Assembly: GCA_025927655.1 (NCBI GenBank)
Contig: JAICKY010000003.1
Span: forward strand, 1-52,131
DNA: 52,131 nt
Direction of reading: 5' to 3'
Origin: Candidatus Saccharimonadota bacterium
GTDB lineage: Bacteria; Patescibacteriota; Saccharimonadia; Saccharimonadales; UBA4665
Shown here: positions 20,189 to 28,042 of the stretch, piece after piece
Position numbering within the stretch: position 1 is the stretch's first letter
How the letters are laid out: each line of letters opens with the position of its first letter
Notes under the pieces: model-generated
What the model saw: only the letters and a program-made list of their open reading frames with translations
Told to the model about the DNA's origin: nothing
Databases searched by the model: none
Position numbers and translations under genes: made by a program

Positions 20189-20280
20189 CGGTACATACAA
20201 AACCAGGGCTTAGAGGATGCGGGGCAAAACAACGTTGCATTGTTTTGAAACGGGTAAATCCCCGACCGTAAGGTCGTGGG
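20189..20280 (+). mobile_element. Decayed IS200/IS605 right end: last 19 codons of TnpA plus hairpin
   Basis: Codons 20189-20248 read RYIQNQGLEDAGQNNVALF and a stop, nearly the same as the transposase tail at 38-100 (RYIQNQGKEDAGQNNIELF). An imperfect hairpin follows at 20260-20280 (CCCCGACC, loop GTAA, GGTCGTGGG), again as in the first copy. Nothing of the transposase remains upstream, where the isochorismatase-like gene starts. It is a scar of an old insertion. Confidence 0.8.
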
Positions 20281-20308
20281 AAGTTTTAGTGCATATATCG
20301 GCGGTGCA

Positions 20309-22675
20309 ATGAAGAGACGCGAGTTTTTGATAGGGCAAGGAAGATTTTTGCAAAAGGACTTGCCAGGAGGGTCTTCTTTTCTTAAACTTAAGCAGTTAGC
20401 TCTGCAGCGGCTGCAGGATTTTTATTTTCGACTTTGGGCACTTGCCAGGATGCAGGGTGCTTTTTATATGGCAAAAAGAGGGCAGATGAAGCAAGCAGTA
20501 CAGACAAATGCCGGACATGTTTCTCTGAGTGAAGCATTCCATGCCCTGCAGGTGCTGACAATGTGCCGACCGTTCACGGGTTTGGATGAGTGGCGGCAAC
20601 AGGCAGGCGGCGCAGGGCATGGTGTGTTTGACCCGGCATTGGCCGCGATGCTTGCGAAGCAACCGCCGAGCAAAGCTGGCACGCTGGCACAGCCAAGCTT
20701 ATGGACGGCACTGCATTTTTCGATTGCTTTGCCGGTGCTCTTTTGGACAATTCGTAAATATAGCGAAGATCCGCTTACGGCGGGATTGCAGCTGAGCGAA
20801 GAGCGCGCCGCGCGCAGCTTCCCTGCCTTCATGCCCATCGCAGCGCATTACGTCGAGCATCGGCGACTGGCAGGGACGGTTGGCACGGCGCCGGATGCTG
20901 CCGCCTGGCGGGCTTTGCTCGATCGGCATATACAATTTCCTATAACCTCGGTGGGCGAGGCGCTGCAGGCGTTGCCGTCACCCTTGCAGAAAGCGGCAAA
21001 AGACGCGGTGCAGGGCGATGTCAGCTTGGCCGGCCGCATAGTTCTTGCCTACTTGGTCGAGCATGGCGTAGCTGCCGCGGCGCTTGGTATCGACAACCGT
21101 GTAAAGCCCTATATCGAGCCGATTGGCGACGGTCCACGGCAATCATTTTTTGAGCGTTTGTGCGCTGCATATGCCGAACTGCCACAGCTCGCGCCATTTC
21201 TCGATGACTACGATGGATGTAGCGTTCGGCTCGATGCCTTTTTAGGCTTGGTGTCTTGGTATGGCCGTCCGCACGTGGTGGAGATGGTTGTGCCGAATAT
21301 GTCTGGCGCGGCAGCTCACGCGGCACGGGCGCTCATCGCCCTTTTCAAAGAATTGGTCGCCGAAGGCTCCCCCGACTACACCCGTCCGCCTACGGCGGAA
21401 CTCGCAAGTGTTGAGAAGTTTCGTGAGACGCAGTCGCTCGAAGCGATCGGCAGATTGTCCTTTGTTGAAGATTTGCTCTACGATGCAGCGCACGACAAGC
21501 ACGCCGGCGGCATGGTGTTGCGGCGGCTCGTAACAAATATGTACCCGGAGGAAGAACGTCAGGCAGCATGGGGTAACGCTGAGCGTTACGTACCGGATGT
21601 ACGGCGCACTGGCTTTGCAACGTTCCGCCAGGACGTTGGCAACATTTTGTATGCCATGGGTTTGTTGGAGCAAAGTGACGAGGGACGCAGCCGGCGACTG
21701 GCTGACGCTGCCTGGCGAGTGCAATCAGCCGCGACAGTTTTCGAGATACGCACTCTTGTGCAGATGGCTCGTGTCACTGTCAGCGAAACTTTCGAGAACT
21801 GGCGCAAGCGCTACGCCAGCCATGAGCGGCTGCGTATCTTACGGTGGTTGCAGCATGCTTTTGGACTCGAGCGGCTGCCGCTTGCGCCGGTACCGTTTGA
21901 GGAGTTGGCGCTCAGTTTTGCAGGCTCAACGCGCGGTGATAGCTTCTACACTGTTCGTTTGCGCGAGGCTGAGGACGAAGGCTCGTGGCGCGTGCCCCTG
22001 CCTGCGCTTGCGCATCCGCTTGCTCGCGTACGCTACCACACGCTTGCAATGGGTGAGGTGCGCACAAGTGCCGAGGGGCTACCCTTTGCCGCCTGGCTGA
22101 GCATAACCAGCCCAAAAGGTACGGTGGAAGTGCCAGTTCCGGCACGCGGCAGTTTTGAGCTGTTTGGCCGGCCAGGCAGCGCGCACGCCGGCGAAGTTGT
22201 GGGGTTTGGCTGTTCGGTGCACCACGCGGCGCTCGCTGTACTGCTCGCCGAGCTGACTGCGCTTGGCGCCGCGCAGGGTGAGCTCCGTCAGCTTCTCCGC
22301 TCTGTTATGAGCCTCAACGATGGCGTGCACGAACGTTTGGACTTAGCTGACTTCCAGCTTGAGGAAATTGTTACTGCCGTGCACCAAGGGCGGCTACTAT
22401 CGTATGCCGACTATTTGCGCGAGCGTCCGCAGTTGTGTGAGGATGCTAGTCGTCCGCACTTGCAAACCTATACTGCCGGCGGCCCTGTTTCTACGGCGTG
22501 GGCTGAGCCAGCCGCCGCCCGCTTGCTATTCATTTGCCCTGCGCTTTACGATGCCGCGGACGCCCCGCCCCGCCCGCGCGCTAGCTGGTACGATGGCCGC
22601 GACGCCCGCCTTGCGCCGGCCACGCCATTTACGTGGCAATGCGTATATAAAGACGCGGAAGGTGTGCTTGCATGA
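20309..22675 (+). CDS. Large unknown mostly helical protein, about 788 aa
   Basis: I do not recognise this protein. It is soluble, rich in Ala, Leu and Arg, and seems mostly alpha-helical, with a more beta-like stretch (about residues 540-640: LSFAGSTRGDSFYTVRLRE, WLSITSPKGTVEVPVPARG) and a Pro-rich C-terminus. No nucleotide-binding, zinc or catalytic motif is evident. The start at 20309 (MKRREFLIG) is uncertain: an earlier start at 20276 lies inside the IS hairpin, and a later ATG at 20468 is possible. G+C is higher than in neighbours, hinting at transfer. The stop overlaps the next gene as ATGA, so the two form a unit. Confidence 0.7.
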   Translation: MKRREFLIGQGRFLQKDLPGGSSFLKLKQLALQRLQDFYFRLWALARMQGAFYMAKRGQMKQAVQTNAGHVSLSEAFHALQVLTMCRPFTGLDEWRQQAGGAGHGVFDPALAAMLAKQPPSKAGTLAQPSLWTALHFSIALPVLFWTIRKYSEDPLTAGLQLSEERAARSFPAFMPIAAHYVEHRRLAGTVGTAPDAAAWRALLDRHIQFPITSVGEALQALPSPLQKAAKDAVQGDVSLAGRIVLAYLVEHGVAAAALGIDNRVKPYIEPIGDGPRQSFFERLCAAYAELPQLAPFLDDYDGCSVRLDAFLGLVSWYGRPHVVEMVVPNMSGAAAHAARALIALFKELVAEGSPDYTRPPTAELASVEKFRETQSLEAIGRLSFVEDLLYDAAHDKHAGGMVLRRLVTNMYPEEERQAAWGNAERYVPDVRRTGFATFRQDVGNILYAMGLLEQSDEGRSRRLADAAWRVQSAATVFEIRTLVQMARVTVSETFENWRKRYASHERLRILRWLQHAFGLERLPLAPVPFEELALSFAGSTRGDSFYTVRLREAEDEGSWRVPLPALAHPLARVRYHTLAMGEVRTSAEGLPFAAWLSITSPKGTVEVPVPARGSFELFGRPGSAHAGEVVGFGCSVHHAALAVLLAELTALGAAQGELRQLLRSVMSLNDGVHERLDLADFQLEEIVTAVHQGRLLSYADYLRERPQLCEDASRPHLQTYTAGGPVSTAWAEPAAARLLFICPALYDAADAPPRPRASWYDGRDARLAPATPFTWQCVYKDAEGVLA

Positions 22676-24893: not shown

Positions 24894-24922
24894 TTGCGTT
24901 ATCGTGTGCACGGTTGTAAAAT
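24894..24922 (+). promoter_or_regulatory. Promoter of the candidate graspetide locus
   Basis: TTGCGT (24894-24899), 17 nt, TAAAAT (24917-24922). Start near 24929, then GAGGA at 24939-24943 and the ATG at 24951. Confidence 0.6.
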
Positions 24923-24950
24923 GTAGTAGCATCTTAATGAGGAATGTATA

Positions 24951-25217
24951 ATGGCATCTTCGCACGAAGGACATCCACAAATAGATACGACAGCGCCATT
25001 CGGTGTCGAATATTTTACGAACCTTGATACGATTGAAATTAAGGCAGATAAGCTATCTCTAGGAGGACTCTCTTGTATCCGTGGTGACGGATCCGGTCCT
25101 GCGGATGCAATCTCGCCACATCCTTCAGCAGACACAGGAGAGACCAAGCCCGGAAATCCTGGAGATCCTTTGCCAGACCCACGTCCACCTAGGGCGGATG
25201 TGACTAGTCTTTTTTAA
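24951..25217 (+). CDS. Candidate graspetide precursor peptide, 88 aa
   Basis: A small protein directly before an ATP-grasp peptide ligase. Residues 15-25 read APFGVEYFTNL, similar in style to the PFG/PWG-x-R/E-Y leader motif of ATP-grasp-target RiPPs. The C-terminal half (about 44-88) is disordered and rich in Pro and Gly, with seven acidic residues (Asp46, 52, 61, Glu64, Asp72, 76, 83) interleaved with Ser, Thr and one Lys (Lys66), which are the donors and acceptors for omega-ester or omega-amide macrocycles. It has a promoter and a GAGGA site 7 nt before ATG. No paralogous tandem core repeat is obvious. Precursor identity is inferred from position and composition. Confidence 0.65.
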   Translation: MASSHEGHPQIDTTAPFGVEYFTNLDTIEIKADKLSLGGLSCIRGDGSGPADAISPHPSADTGETKPGNPGDPLPDPRPPRADVTSLF

Positions 25218-25220
25218 GAC

Positions 25221-26201
25221 ATGGCAAAGACTAGCCGACAAATTCTCGTTATCACTGACGTTGAGGACGTGCATGTTCCCTATGTCCAAAAGCACCTGAA
25301 GACGCCGATGATCCTACTTGATCCGCGTGCGCTCCTGCGCGGTACGACGCTGACGTATGAGACTAAAAGCGGCCACACGATCCCAACGTATGATGGTATT
25401 GTCCTCGATTCCGTGTCTGGGGTGTGGTTTCGTAAACCACAAAATGTGACGTTGGACGTCGTACCGGTTGCGGAACCATATAAAAAGTACGCTGCTCGTG
25501 CACTAGAAACACACTTCTCGTCATTGTATGCTGCATTTCAGGACGCGTGTTGGATTTCTGATTACTATTCTTTGTGGCGTGCCAGTGACAAGACATTACA
25601 ACTCACGCTTGCCAAGCAAATCGGATTCAAGGTGCCTGATACGGTTGCTACCTCTGACGCTAACGTCGCGCGAGAGTTTATTGCTACGCACGACGCAAGT
25701 ATTGTGAAAACACTTGCGTCAGCGTGGACAAAAGTCGAAGGTGTAAGAAAGGGCTTCTACACAACACTAGTCGACAAAAAGAAGATGCCTAGTTTCGATA
25801 ATCTATATCTATCTCCTGCTATATTCCAAGCGGCTATTGATCCGGATTTTGAGCTGAGGGTGACTGTTGTGGGCGATAAGGTCTTCCCTGCTACTGTACG
25901 ATATGACTCGCCGGATCCTAAGAAGTACGCTCAGACACGCGATTGGCGACTGGGCCATGCTTATGGCAAATTAGCCTTTGGTAAGTATGATGCATTTCCG
26001 TCAGATATCGCCGATATGTGCCGGTGCCACGTAAAGGACCTTGGTCTTATGTTCGGAGCTATTGATTTGATAGTAGACAAAGAGGGTGACTATTGGTTTC
26101 TCGAAAATAATCCGAATGGACAATGGGCTTTTATTGAAATCTCGACAGGACAACAGATTGGCAAAGCGATTGCTGACCTGCTTGAGGCCGGGTCAGTTTG
26201 A
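25221..26201 (+). CDS. MvdD/SAV_5884-like ATP-grasp ligase (graspetide maturase)
   Basis: A 326-aa ATP-grasp enzyme of the RiPP-maturase type. The pre-ATP-grasp domain contains SGVWFRKPQ; then CWISDYYSLWRASDKTLQL and AKQIGFKVPDTVATSD, a typical lid and nucleotide region; finally FLENNPNGQWAFIE near residue 295, the metal-binding ExNPxGQW signature shared with MvdC/MvdD. These enzymes activate Asp/Glu side chains by phosphorylation and couple them to Ser, Thr or Lys of the same peptide. It begins 3 nt after the small precursor gene, with no own ribosome-binding site, so the two are coupled. Confidence 0.85.
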   Translation: MAKTSRQILVITDVEDVHVPYVQKHLKTPMILLDPRALLRGTTLTYETKSGHTIPTYDGIVLDSVSGVWFRKPQNVTLDVVPVAEPYKKYAARALETHFSSLYAAFQDACWISDYYSLWRASDKTLQLTLAKQIGFKVPDTVATSDANVAREFIATHDASIVKTLASAWTKVEGVRKGFYTTLVDKKKMPSFDNLYLSPAIFQAAIDPDFELRVTVVGDKVFPATVRYDSPDPKKYAQTRDWRLGHAYGKLAFGKYDAFPSDIADMCRCHVKDLGLMFGAIDLIVDKEGDYWFLENNPNGQWAFIEISTGQQIGKAIADLLEAGSV

Positions 26202-26215
26202 GGTATGCTGGAGGC

Positions 26216-26689
26216 ATGATTAAAAGTAGTGCTCCCGAAAACTACGTGTGTCCAATTTGTTTGGGTGTTCAAGAAGTCGTCAGTGATGATACGCTGATGC
26301 GTCCGGCTGATATTATCTATAAAGATAGGCTTGTCACAGCCTTCATCAATTCATTTTTCGTTGGCCAAAATGCCGGGCATGCAATAGTTGTTCCGAACGA
26401 CCATTACGAGAATATCTATGATCTCCCGGCTGAATACGGTCATCGCATTTTTGATGTAGCGCAGCGCATTGCGCTCGCCATGAAGGAAGCCTATGGTTGC
26501 GACGGGATAACGACCCGACAAAACAATGAGCCGGCCGGTGACCAGCATGCATTTCATTTCCACTTCCATGTTTTTCCACGCTACACGGATGACGGTTACA
26601 ATACTGTCCAGCCTTCTGAAAAGCGTCTGGCAGAACCCGGACAGCGGGCTGAGTACGCTGCCAAGCTAAAGGCTCAGCTAACGAAGTAG
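26216..26689 (+). CDS. HIT-family hydrolase
   Basis: A 157-aa histidine-triad protein. The triad HAFHFHFHVFPRY (H-x-H-x-H) and the upstream NNEPAGDQH block are complete. An N-terminal CPIC pair could bind a metal. HIT enzymes hydrolyse nucleotidyl bonds such as AMP-lysine or dinucleoside polyphosphates. The start at 26216 follows a TATGCT box by 6 nt with TTGAGG 16 nt further upstream, so it may have its own leaderless message, though it lies only 14 nt after the ATP-grasp gene. A role in the peptide pathway is possible but unproven. Confidence 0.88.
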   Translation: MIKSSAPENYVCPICLGVQEVVSDDTLMRPADIIYKDRLVTAFINSFFVGQNAGHAIVVPNDHYENIYDLPAEYGHRIFDVAQRIALAMKEAYGCDGITTRQNNEPAGDQHAFHFHFHVFPRYTDDGYNTVQPSEKRLAEPGQRAEYAAKLKAQLTK

Positions 26690-26887: not shown

Positions 26888-27352
26888 CTACACGCTCAGG
26901 CCAAGCTGGCTGACCACGCTATTTGGGCCATAGGAAAATGAGTCGCCAGATTCCAGGGCCCTGCGCCATGCCGCTACGACTGCACCCCGGTCCATCTTCA
27001 TAGACTCAAACCAAGCGGGCTGCGCAACAGGATTAGAATACGCGTTGCTTCCCCAGGTAGCTATTTCATACAGAATAGGTATAGCGTTGATGCCCTCGGG
27101 AGTGAGCTTGTAGATTGTTTTTCGTTTGTCGGCAGGGTCCGGCAATCTGACAATAATGCCTTTTTCCTCTAGGTGATTGAGCCGGTCAGTTAGTACGCTT
27201 GAACCAATCCGCTCTTCGGACTCCAAAAATTCGCCAAATGTCTTTTTGCCGAGCGTCGTCATATCCCGATAAATAACCATAGACCACGTATCGCCGAATA
27301 TCTCGACGGCGTAATTTATGGGACAATCTGATTTATGATCTGCTCGTTTCAT
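26888..27352 (-). CDS. HxlR-family transcriptional regulator
   Basis: A 154-aa winged-helix regulator. The HxlR pattern is clear: DCPINYAVEIFGDTWSMVIY with the early Cys, then SSVLTDRLNHLEEKGIIVR as the recognition helix and wing, then KRKTIYKLTPEG. Many HxlR proteins sense electrophiles or oxidants through the N-terminal Cys. The start at 27352 is set by a TTGATT-17-TACAAT promoter 6 nt upstream; an upstream start at 27421 would include the operator. It is divergent from the reductase-like gene and probably controls both. Confidence 0.9.
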   Translation of the reverse strand: MKRADHKSDCPINYAVEIFGDTWSMVIYRDMTTLGKKTFGEFLESEERIGSSVLTDRLNHLEEKGIIVRLPDPADKRKTIYKLTPEGINAIPILYEIATWGSNAYSNPVAQPAWFESMKMDRGAVVAAWRRALESGDSFSYGPNSVVSQLGLSV

Positions 27353-27358
27353 GGTAGT

Positions 27359-27400
27359 ATTGTAGCATACTTGACTTTGATAATCAAAGTGAGTTATTCT
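27359..27400. promoter_or_regulatory. Overlapping divergent promoters with a palindromic operator
   Basis: Minus strand: TTGATT (27382-27387), 17 nt, TACAAT (27359-27364). Plus strand: TTGACT (27371-27376), 18 nt, TATTCT (27395-27400). The 17-nt palindrome ACTTTGATAATCAAAGT (27374-27390) covers both -35 boxes, and a second ACTTTGATCA half lies at 27411-27420. This is the natural HxlR binding site. Confidence 0.75.
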
Positions 27401-27448
27401 ACCCAGTGTTACTTTGATCATAAAACTAAATGAAAGAGTTATAGAAGT

Positions 27449-28042
27449 ATGCGAAAAATAATTGTATTATCAATGATTACCCTGGACGGCGTCATGCAAG
27501 GCATGGGCGGCCCAACGGAAGACCCATCAAACAACTTTGCTTACGGCGGCTGGAGCGCGCCATACGACGACGAAGTACTGCGCGAGACTATGCCAAAGTG
27601 GATGAAGTCTTCCGACCTCCTGCTAGGCCGGAAAACGTTTGAAATCTTTTCGTCTGTCTGGCCGCAGCGCGAGGCTGTATGGCCGGGCATTAACGACGTT
27701 ACAAAATATGTCGTAAGCAGCACCATGAAGGAAGGCGACTGGAAAAACTCTGTGTTCCTCGAAGACGTCGAGGCTATCAAGAAGCTGAAAAACTCAGAGG
27801 GCTCAGACTTGCAAGTATGGGGCAGCAGCAACCTCGTCCAGACACTGTTCAAGCATGATTTAGTTGATGAACTCTGGTTGCAAATTCACCCGCTCACCCT
27901 CGGTACCGGCAAAAAGTTATTCGGTGAAGGCACGAGCCCTGCCGCCTACACTGTTATCGAGAGTACGACAACGCCGAGCGGAGTCATTGTGGTCACTTAC
28001 AAGCGTGCTGGAGACGTTAAAACCGGAACTGTCGGCGTATAA
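27449..28042 (+). CDS. Dihydrofolate-reductase/RibD-C-like protein
   Basis: A 197-aa protein of the RibD C-terminal/DHFR-fold family (YwjB-like): N-terminal MRKIIVLSMITLDGVMQGMG, middle LLLGRKTFEIFSSVWP, then DLQVWGSSNLVQTLFKHDLV and a final strand GVIVVTYKR. These proteins bind NADPH and reduce uncertain substrates; true DHFR is unlikely because the catalytic acidic residue position is not conserved. It is preceded by the HxlR-controlled promoter, a common partnership. Confidence 0.85.
   Translation: MRKIIVLSMITLDGVMQGMGGPTEDPSNNFAYGGWSAPYDDEVLRETMPKWMKSSDLLLGRKTFEIFSSVWPQREAVWPGINDVTKYVVSSTMKEGDWKNSVFLEDVEAIKKLKNSEGSDLQVWGSSNLVQTLFKHDLVDELWLQIHPLTLGTGKKLFGEGTSPAAYTVIESTTTPSGVIVVTYKRAGDVKTGTVGV

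Follow-up and report, generated by a model that had tools for sequence, protein, structure and literature searches.

The window, a stretch of 52,131 nucleotides from a Candidatus Saccharimonadota bacterium, carries a gene for an 88-aa protein and, directly behind it, a gene for an ATP-grasp ligase (Table 1). Both genes are in the same reading frame, the TAA of the first being followed by GAC and by the ATG of the second at position 25221. An earlier sequence-only reading had described this arrangement, with an APFGVEYF leader (aa 15-22 of the translation) and a distance of 3 nt to the ligase, and the ORF coordinates and the junction TAA-GAC-ATG agree with it; the ExNPxGQW signature that it attributed to the ligase is present as ENNPNGQW, and, as it had stated, no transporter or protease gene adjoins the pair. 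A HIT-domain gene (ATG at 26216, to 26689) also lies inside the interval 24894-26689 and was rejected as a third member of the locus, being found beside no ligase of the relatives examined. An upstream amine oxidase was likewise rejected as a partner; its homologue in one same-genus genome has other surroundings and no ligase. The window further holds, at 20276-22675 (+), an ORF of 799 aa with no Pfam match.

Table 1. Features of the precursor-ligase pair, with positions in the window.
Feature	Position	Strand	Basis
Probable ribosome-binding site GAGGA	24939..24943	+	7 nt 5' of precursor ATG; sequence
Predicted graspetide precursor, 88 aa	24951..25217	+	Leader homology to L002 precursor, core homology to L016 precursor, co-conserved small ORFs
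Leader motif PFGVEYF, aa 16-22, predicted ligase recognition element	24996..25016	+	P[FV]G co-occurrence with clade I/sister
Predicted core SADTGETKPGNPGDPLPDPRP, aa 59-79, candidate linkage residues T62, T65, D72, D76	25125..25187	+	
3-nt intergenic gap GAC between precursor TAA and ligase ATG	25218..25220	+	Sequence
ATP-grasp graspetide ligase, 326 aa	25221..26201	+	TIGR04187 profile; PDB sequence matches; predicted fold
ENNPNGQW signature of ligase, aa 295-302	26103..26126	+	Translation

The codon usage score of the 88-aa ORF is equalled by 28% of non-coding shadow ORFs; since codon usage alone does not call the ORF coding, its reality rests on homology. The search against precursor models that the sequence-only reading had proposed came out empty, as no NCBIfam or Pfam model was matched by any precursor submitted, the window's 88-aa protein included. 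A sigma-70 scan, near chance overall, placed no site 5' of the pair.

Profiles, sequence and predicted fold identify the ligase as a graspetide macrocyclase, closest to the SAV_5884/TgmB type, and not as RimK or another non-peptide ATP-grasp enzyme. Its top NCBIfam profile is TIGR04187 GRASP_SAV_5884 (2.8e-59, 201 bits), with MvdC (8.6e-46), MvdD (2.9e-38) and RimK TIGR00768 (2.8e-7) ranking lower. All these scores fall under the curated cut-offs (201 vs 350 bits for TIGR04187, 30 vs 143 bits for TIGR00768), so the enzyme is a divergent member of the MvdC/MvdD/SAV_5884 ATP-grasp family; by its score, and by its position outside the TgmB clade, it falls outside the TIGR04187 (TgmA/TgmB) subfamily. 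Sequence matches in the PDB were MdnB (5ig8), AMdnB (7m4s), CdnC (7mgv), PruB (9bou), MdnC (5ig9) and, weakly, PsnB, and the predicted fold superposes on graspetide ligases with Z 25-28 over 274-303 residues. Residues K124, K163, R213, D282, E295 and N297, which we take to be those expected for ATP-grasp catalysis, vary little or not at all across the ligase alignment. Profiles, PDB matches, tree and fold thus all place the enzyme with peptide macrocyclases, as the sequence-only reading had expected, and no second such ligase was found in the assembly, which is 87% complete. It is scarcely credible that the enzyme is instead RimK-like, adding amino acids to some protein, ribosomal or not, beside an incidental upstream ORF: RimK has the same fold (Z 22-23) and TIGR00768 matches weakly, but this profile is neither over its cut-off nor top-ranked, the graspetide profiles are 50 orders of magnitude better, graspetide ligases come first in the fold ranking (Z 26-28), and relatives of the ligase are accompanied by a leader-bearing small ORF.

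A first scan of the genome collection with the window ligase alone as query gave no match. The closest relative of the ligase, 52% identical, is encoded in a genome of the same family, G075 (CP025011.1), the complete genome of Candidatus Saccharibacteria bacterium YM_S32_TM7_50_20, and this kinship supports the assignment of the window to the Saccharibacteria. In a tree of 43 ligases, from which that of genome G772 was left out, the window ligase lies inside a Saccharibacteria clade (clade I, support 99/94), whose other members are 39-45% identical to it, and this clade groups with ligases from other Patescibacteria (100/99), the TgmB of Streptomyces and Kitasatospora lying elsewhere. A further, separate group of Saccharibacteria ligases (clade II, 100/100) has a signature ending in GQ[YF], not GQW. 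Ligases of either clade are present in 12 of the 93 genomes of the family, and neither of the two same-genus genomes (97-98% complete) has one; this patchy distribution suggests gain and loss. The flanks of the window locus are not syntenic with the same-genus genome that was compared for an empty site. In locus L010 (G035), a clade II ligase is interrupted by an internal TAA beside an intact-looking precursor, possibly a decaying locus.

The tree also bears on the origin of the pair. Many Saccharibacteria have Actinobacteria as hosts, the SAV_5884 type is the top family profile, and the actinobacterial leader APWGTTRM resembles APFGVEYF, all of which would fit a TgmA/TgmB cassette recently captured from a host bacterium. 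Such a transfer is disfavoured by the ligase tree and appears very improbable, because the window ligase sits within the patescibacterial group at two strongly supported nodes, away from the Streptomyces and Kitasatospora TgmB and a Nonomuraea ligase, and is at most 33.5% identical to plasmid-borne actinobacterial ligases.

Support for the small protein as a substrate, which the sequence-only reading had put forward, comes from its relatives. Six Saccharibacteria, the window included, have next to the ligase a small ORF with a P-[F/V]-G leader and a differing C-terminus, and the 88-aa protein is for this reason very probably, on sequence comparison, the substrate of the adjoining ligase. A PFG-type leader stands next to the ligase in clade I genomes G075, G366, G095, G242 and G772. 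At L002, the locus of the 52%-identical ligase, the neighbouring ORF ends in PVGFEFMSSVDPTKREGYNDVQLGNLACLSAAGTNKVDDNTNRFLLP; it aligns with PFGVEYFTNLDTIEIKADKLSLGGLSCIRGDGSGPAD of the window precursor at a score reached by 3 of 5000 shuffles, and the sequences diverge after that. Upstream ORFs in G366, G095 and G242 carry TPFGVKLA, KPFGAEHM and EPFGHQFM, respectively. In G772, EPFGTKEIM is found in an ORF downstream of the ligase, and NPYGLDTF in an ORF upstream of it marks a possible second precursor. The related patescibacterial sister clade (L041/L042) has VPFGAKYL beside the ligase.

These leaders follow the ligase clades. P[FV]G was present in all seven precursors of clade I and its sister and in none of the seven of clade II, and T[VAL][FL]E.[LV] in 7/7 clade II precursors vs 0/7 of clade I; the shuffle products for the two patterns, 10^-9.7 and 10^-18.6, overstate the certainty, because both patterns were picked after inspection. 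Pairwise alignment scores, for which no pattern was chosen, chain most of these precursors together, the window precursor being directly linked to that of L002 only. The pairing is not universal, since no obvious precursor was found near the L021, L044 and L045 ligases. Most ligases of the clade nevertheless have a nearby small gene with a common leader motif and unlike cores, the co-conservation for which the sequence-only reading had proposed to look, and the window locus shows what marks a graspetide locus, a nearby cognate precursor with a conserved leader and a variable core with many Ser/Thr and Asp/Glu residues. We hold with good confidence that the two genes form a minimal graspetide locus in a Saccharibacterium.

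In graspetide biosynthesis (PMC12291112, PMC8939145), binding of the leader activates the ligase, an Asp or Glu side chain is phosphorylated with ATP, and this is then attacked by the hydroxyl of Thr/Ser or the amine of Lys. Precursor and ligase of the window would most likely be translated from a single transcript, and the ligase would bind the N-terminal PFGVEYF leader and phosphorylate Asp/Glu side chains of the C-terminal core at the expense of ATP; coupling of these to Thr/Ser (or Lys) side chains would then release water and leave ester or amide cross-links. These would most likely fall within T62-GE-T65-KPGNPG-D72-PLP-D76 and may be nested, with T65-D72 inside T62-D76. Fuscimiditide has two nested Thr-Asp esters that form a stem-loop (PMC12291112), and the window core T62xxT65x6D72x3D76 could give a similar but smaller one. 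Because both genes share a frame, precursor and ligase could be modelled by AlphaFold as a fusion with the TAA read as Gly; the ligase part was usable, the precursor was disordered (pLDDT about 30), and no docking of the leader was seen in this model, in which the precursor had no alignment depth.

In the Saccharibacteria clade I loci compared, only precursor and ligase are conserved, except for a RibD_C-type reductase near two loci. An HxlR-type regulator and a RibD_C-type reductase are encoded at window positions 26888-27421 (-) and 27449-28042 (+), at most 2 kb downstream of the ligase; the G366 ligase also has a reductase nearby, 60% identical to the window's, and the G772 ligase an adjoining HxlR gene (L053:5522-6154; L088:2753-3205). 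No TgmC-like PIMT-type methyltransferase (TIGR04188) was found over the cut-off in the genome (assembly 87% complete), and some tgmAB loci are likewise without tgmC. A DUF6624 (PF20329) gene adjoins L041- and L004-type ligases and was not found at the window locus. Searches for a C39 peptidase gave none in the window genome or six related genomes, the control genomes giving matches.

Leader cleavage and export, if they occur, would depend on genes elsewhere in the genome, and the product might then act toward the host or competitors. Alternatively, the precursor could be modified and yet not yield a secreted RiPP, the product keeping its leader or having an intracellular role, for instance as a small cross-linked protein. 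The pair indeed has no linked peptidase or exporter, no C39 peptidase was found in the seven genomes searched, and 88 aa is long relative to the core; against this, other graspetide systems also use unlinked proteases for leader removal, and for graspimiditides the native proteases are not known (PMC12291112). We regard this alternative as improbable and retain the two-gene graspetide locus as the preferred reading.

The core of the window precursor has one homologue, found behind another leader. SADTGETKP-GNPGDPLPDPRP aligns with SNDTKMTFPTGDPGDPLPIPRP, the C-terminus of the precursor at L016, a clade II ligase locus of Candidatus Saccharibacteria YM_S32_TM7_50_20, and none of 5000 composition-keeping shuffles reaches the score. 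Across 393 genomes of the order, a degenerate DNA pattern for PGDPLPxPRP matched just the genes of the window and L016 precursors, both immediately 5' of a graspetide ligase. The leader of the L016 precursor is of the clade II type, PTVFEKV. T62, T65 and D72 are kept in both cores, while D76 is replaced by Ile and N68 by Asp in L016. The sequence-only reading had counted seven acidic residues between aa 46 and 83 as donors; the count is correct (D46, D52, D61, E64, D72, D76, D83), but taking all seven as donors is too generous, since the sole homologous core singles out T62, T65 and D72, with D76 possible.

One core thus follows two different leaders, and each leader goes with a separate ligase lineage. 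This is most simply read as recombination of precursor halves, and from the sequences the core seems to have moved between the two. Similarity by convergence on a proline-rich tail is unlikely in our view, if less so than the alternatives considered above: the common segment comprises just 22 aa and is rich in P, G and D, but the shuffles do not reproduce its score, the motif is confined to two genes that each directly precede a graspetide ligase, and the common order DTxxTxP..GxPGDPLPxPRP goes beyond prolines. The wider proposal, for which we see about as much reason for belief as for doubt, is that Saccharibacteria harbour two graspetide lineages (PFG and TVFEKL) with their own ligase clades and with cores moving between them. 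The window precursor would then be a natural chimera, joining the leader of one lineage to the core of the other, as though selection acted on the core product irrespective of the enzyme producing it.

Among known systems, the locus is close to TgmA/TgmB (TIGR04187; Streptomyces, including fuscimiditide ThfA/ThfB/ThfM), with which it shares the best ligase profile, a precursor directly upstream, a P-aromatic-G leader (APWGTTRM in Streptomyces/Kitasatospora TgmA) and the order of Thr before Asp in the core. It differs in the ligase, whose score does not reach the curated cut-off and which the tree puts outside the TgmB clade, in the genome lacking a TgmC/ThfM methyltransferase over the cut-off, in the precursor matching no TgmA model, and in the core. 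Microviridin MdnB/MdnC, AMdnB, plesiocin PsnB, chryseoviridin CdnC and PruB share the ligase fold and the logic of leader-directed macrocyclisation, but their core patterns differ, and microviridins use two ligases, where there is one here, and a PFFARFL leader.

For two branches of candidate-phyla-radiation (CPR) ligases, graspetide loci with their precursors have already been published, so the general claim of such a locus is not new; the leader motif there is Phhx(1,2)h, a cluster 23 partner is frequent, and most members of branch 1 have the core signature TxxxTx(6-10)Dx(1-4)D (PMC8939145). The window resembles both branches in its patescibacterial host, the combination of ATP-grasp ligase and small precursor, and the P-hydrophobic leader motif, and differs from the loci described there in having neither a peptidase nor a cluster 23 partner, which is probably DUF6624 (PF20329). 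Its TxxTx6Dx3D is one residue short of the branch 1 signature, whereas L041 fits it exactly, and in our tree the window clade is sister to the clade holding this branch-1-like precursor. The main text of PMC8939145 does not mention Saccharibacteria by name, and none of the papers searched had both 'graspetide' and 'Patescibacteria'.

The class of system is thus known and its PFG Saccharibacteria branch is poorly charted; added here are this two-gene branch, the rule that leader motifs are specific to ligase clades, and the shared core with its apparent exchange. Saccharibacteria are reduced epibionts, and to our knowledge few molecules are known that they use on hosts or rivals. The structure of the peptide made from a core common to two ligase lineages may be under selection, which makes the shared core a tangible starting point for asking to what end Patescibacteria make RiPPs. 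Being so small, the two-gene cassette lends itself to direct expression in E. coli, and the two leader motifs can serve as search patterns for precursors missed by curated models.

Several further precursors were seen among the loci collected. In the Saccharibacteria genus g23, a conserved precursor of 66-68 aa (L005:1056-1262, L007:362-568, and similarly L006, L008, L009, L012, L014 and L017), with a TVFEKL leader and a core ending in NSxTRxxDGQTVPDER, lies 5' of clade II ligases in several species. The C-terminus of another clade II precursor, L015:1078-1305, repeats T-x-P-x-D-like units (TPPVD, TPPD, TGYPD, TPPD), which suggests a multi-ring core. In a Kiritimatiellae MAG (L028:5167-5955), several successive small ORFs with similar endings, TxTxTxxxxENxDxD, precede the ligase, apparently forming a multi-precursor graspetide locus.
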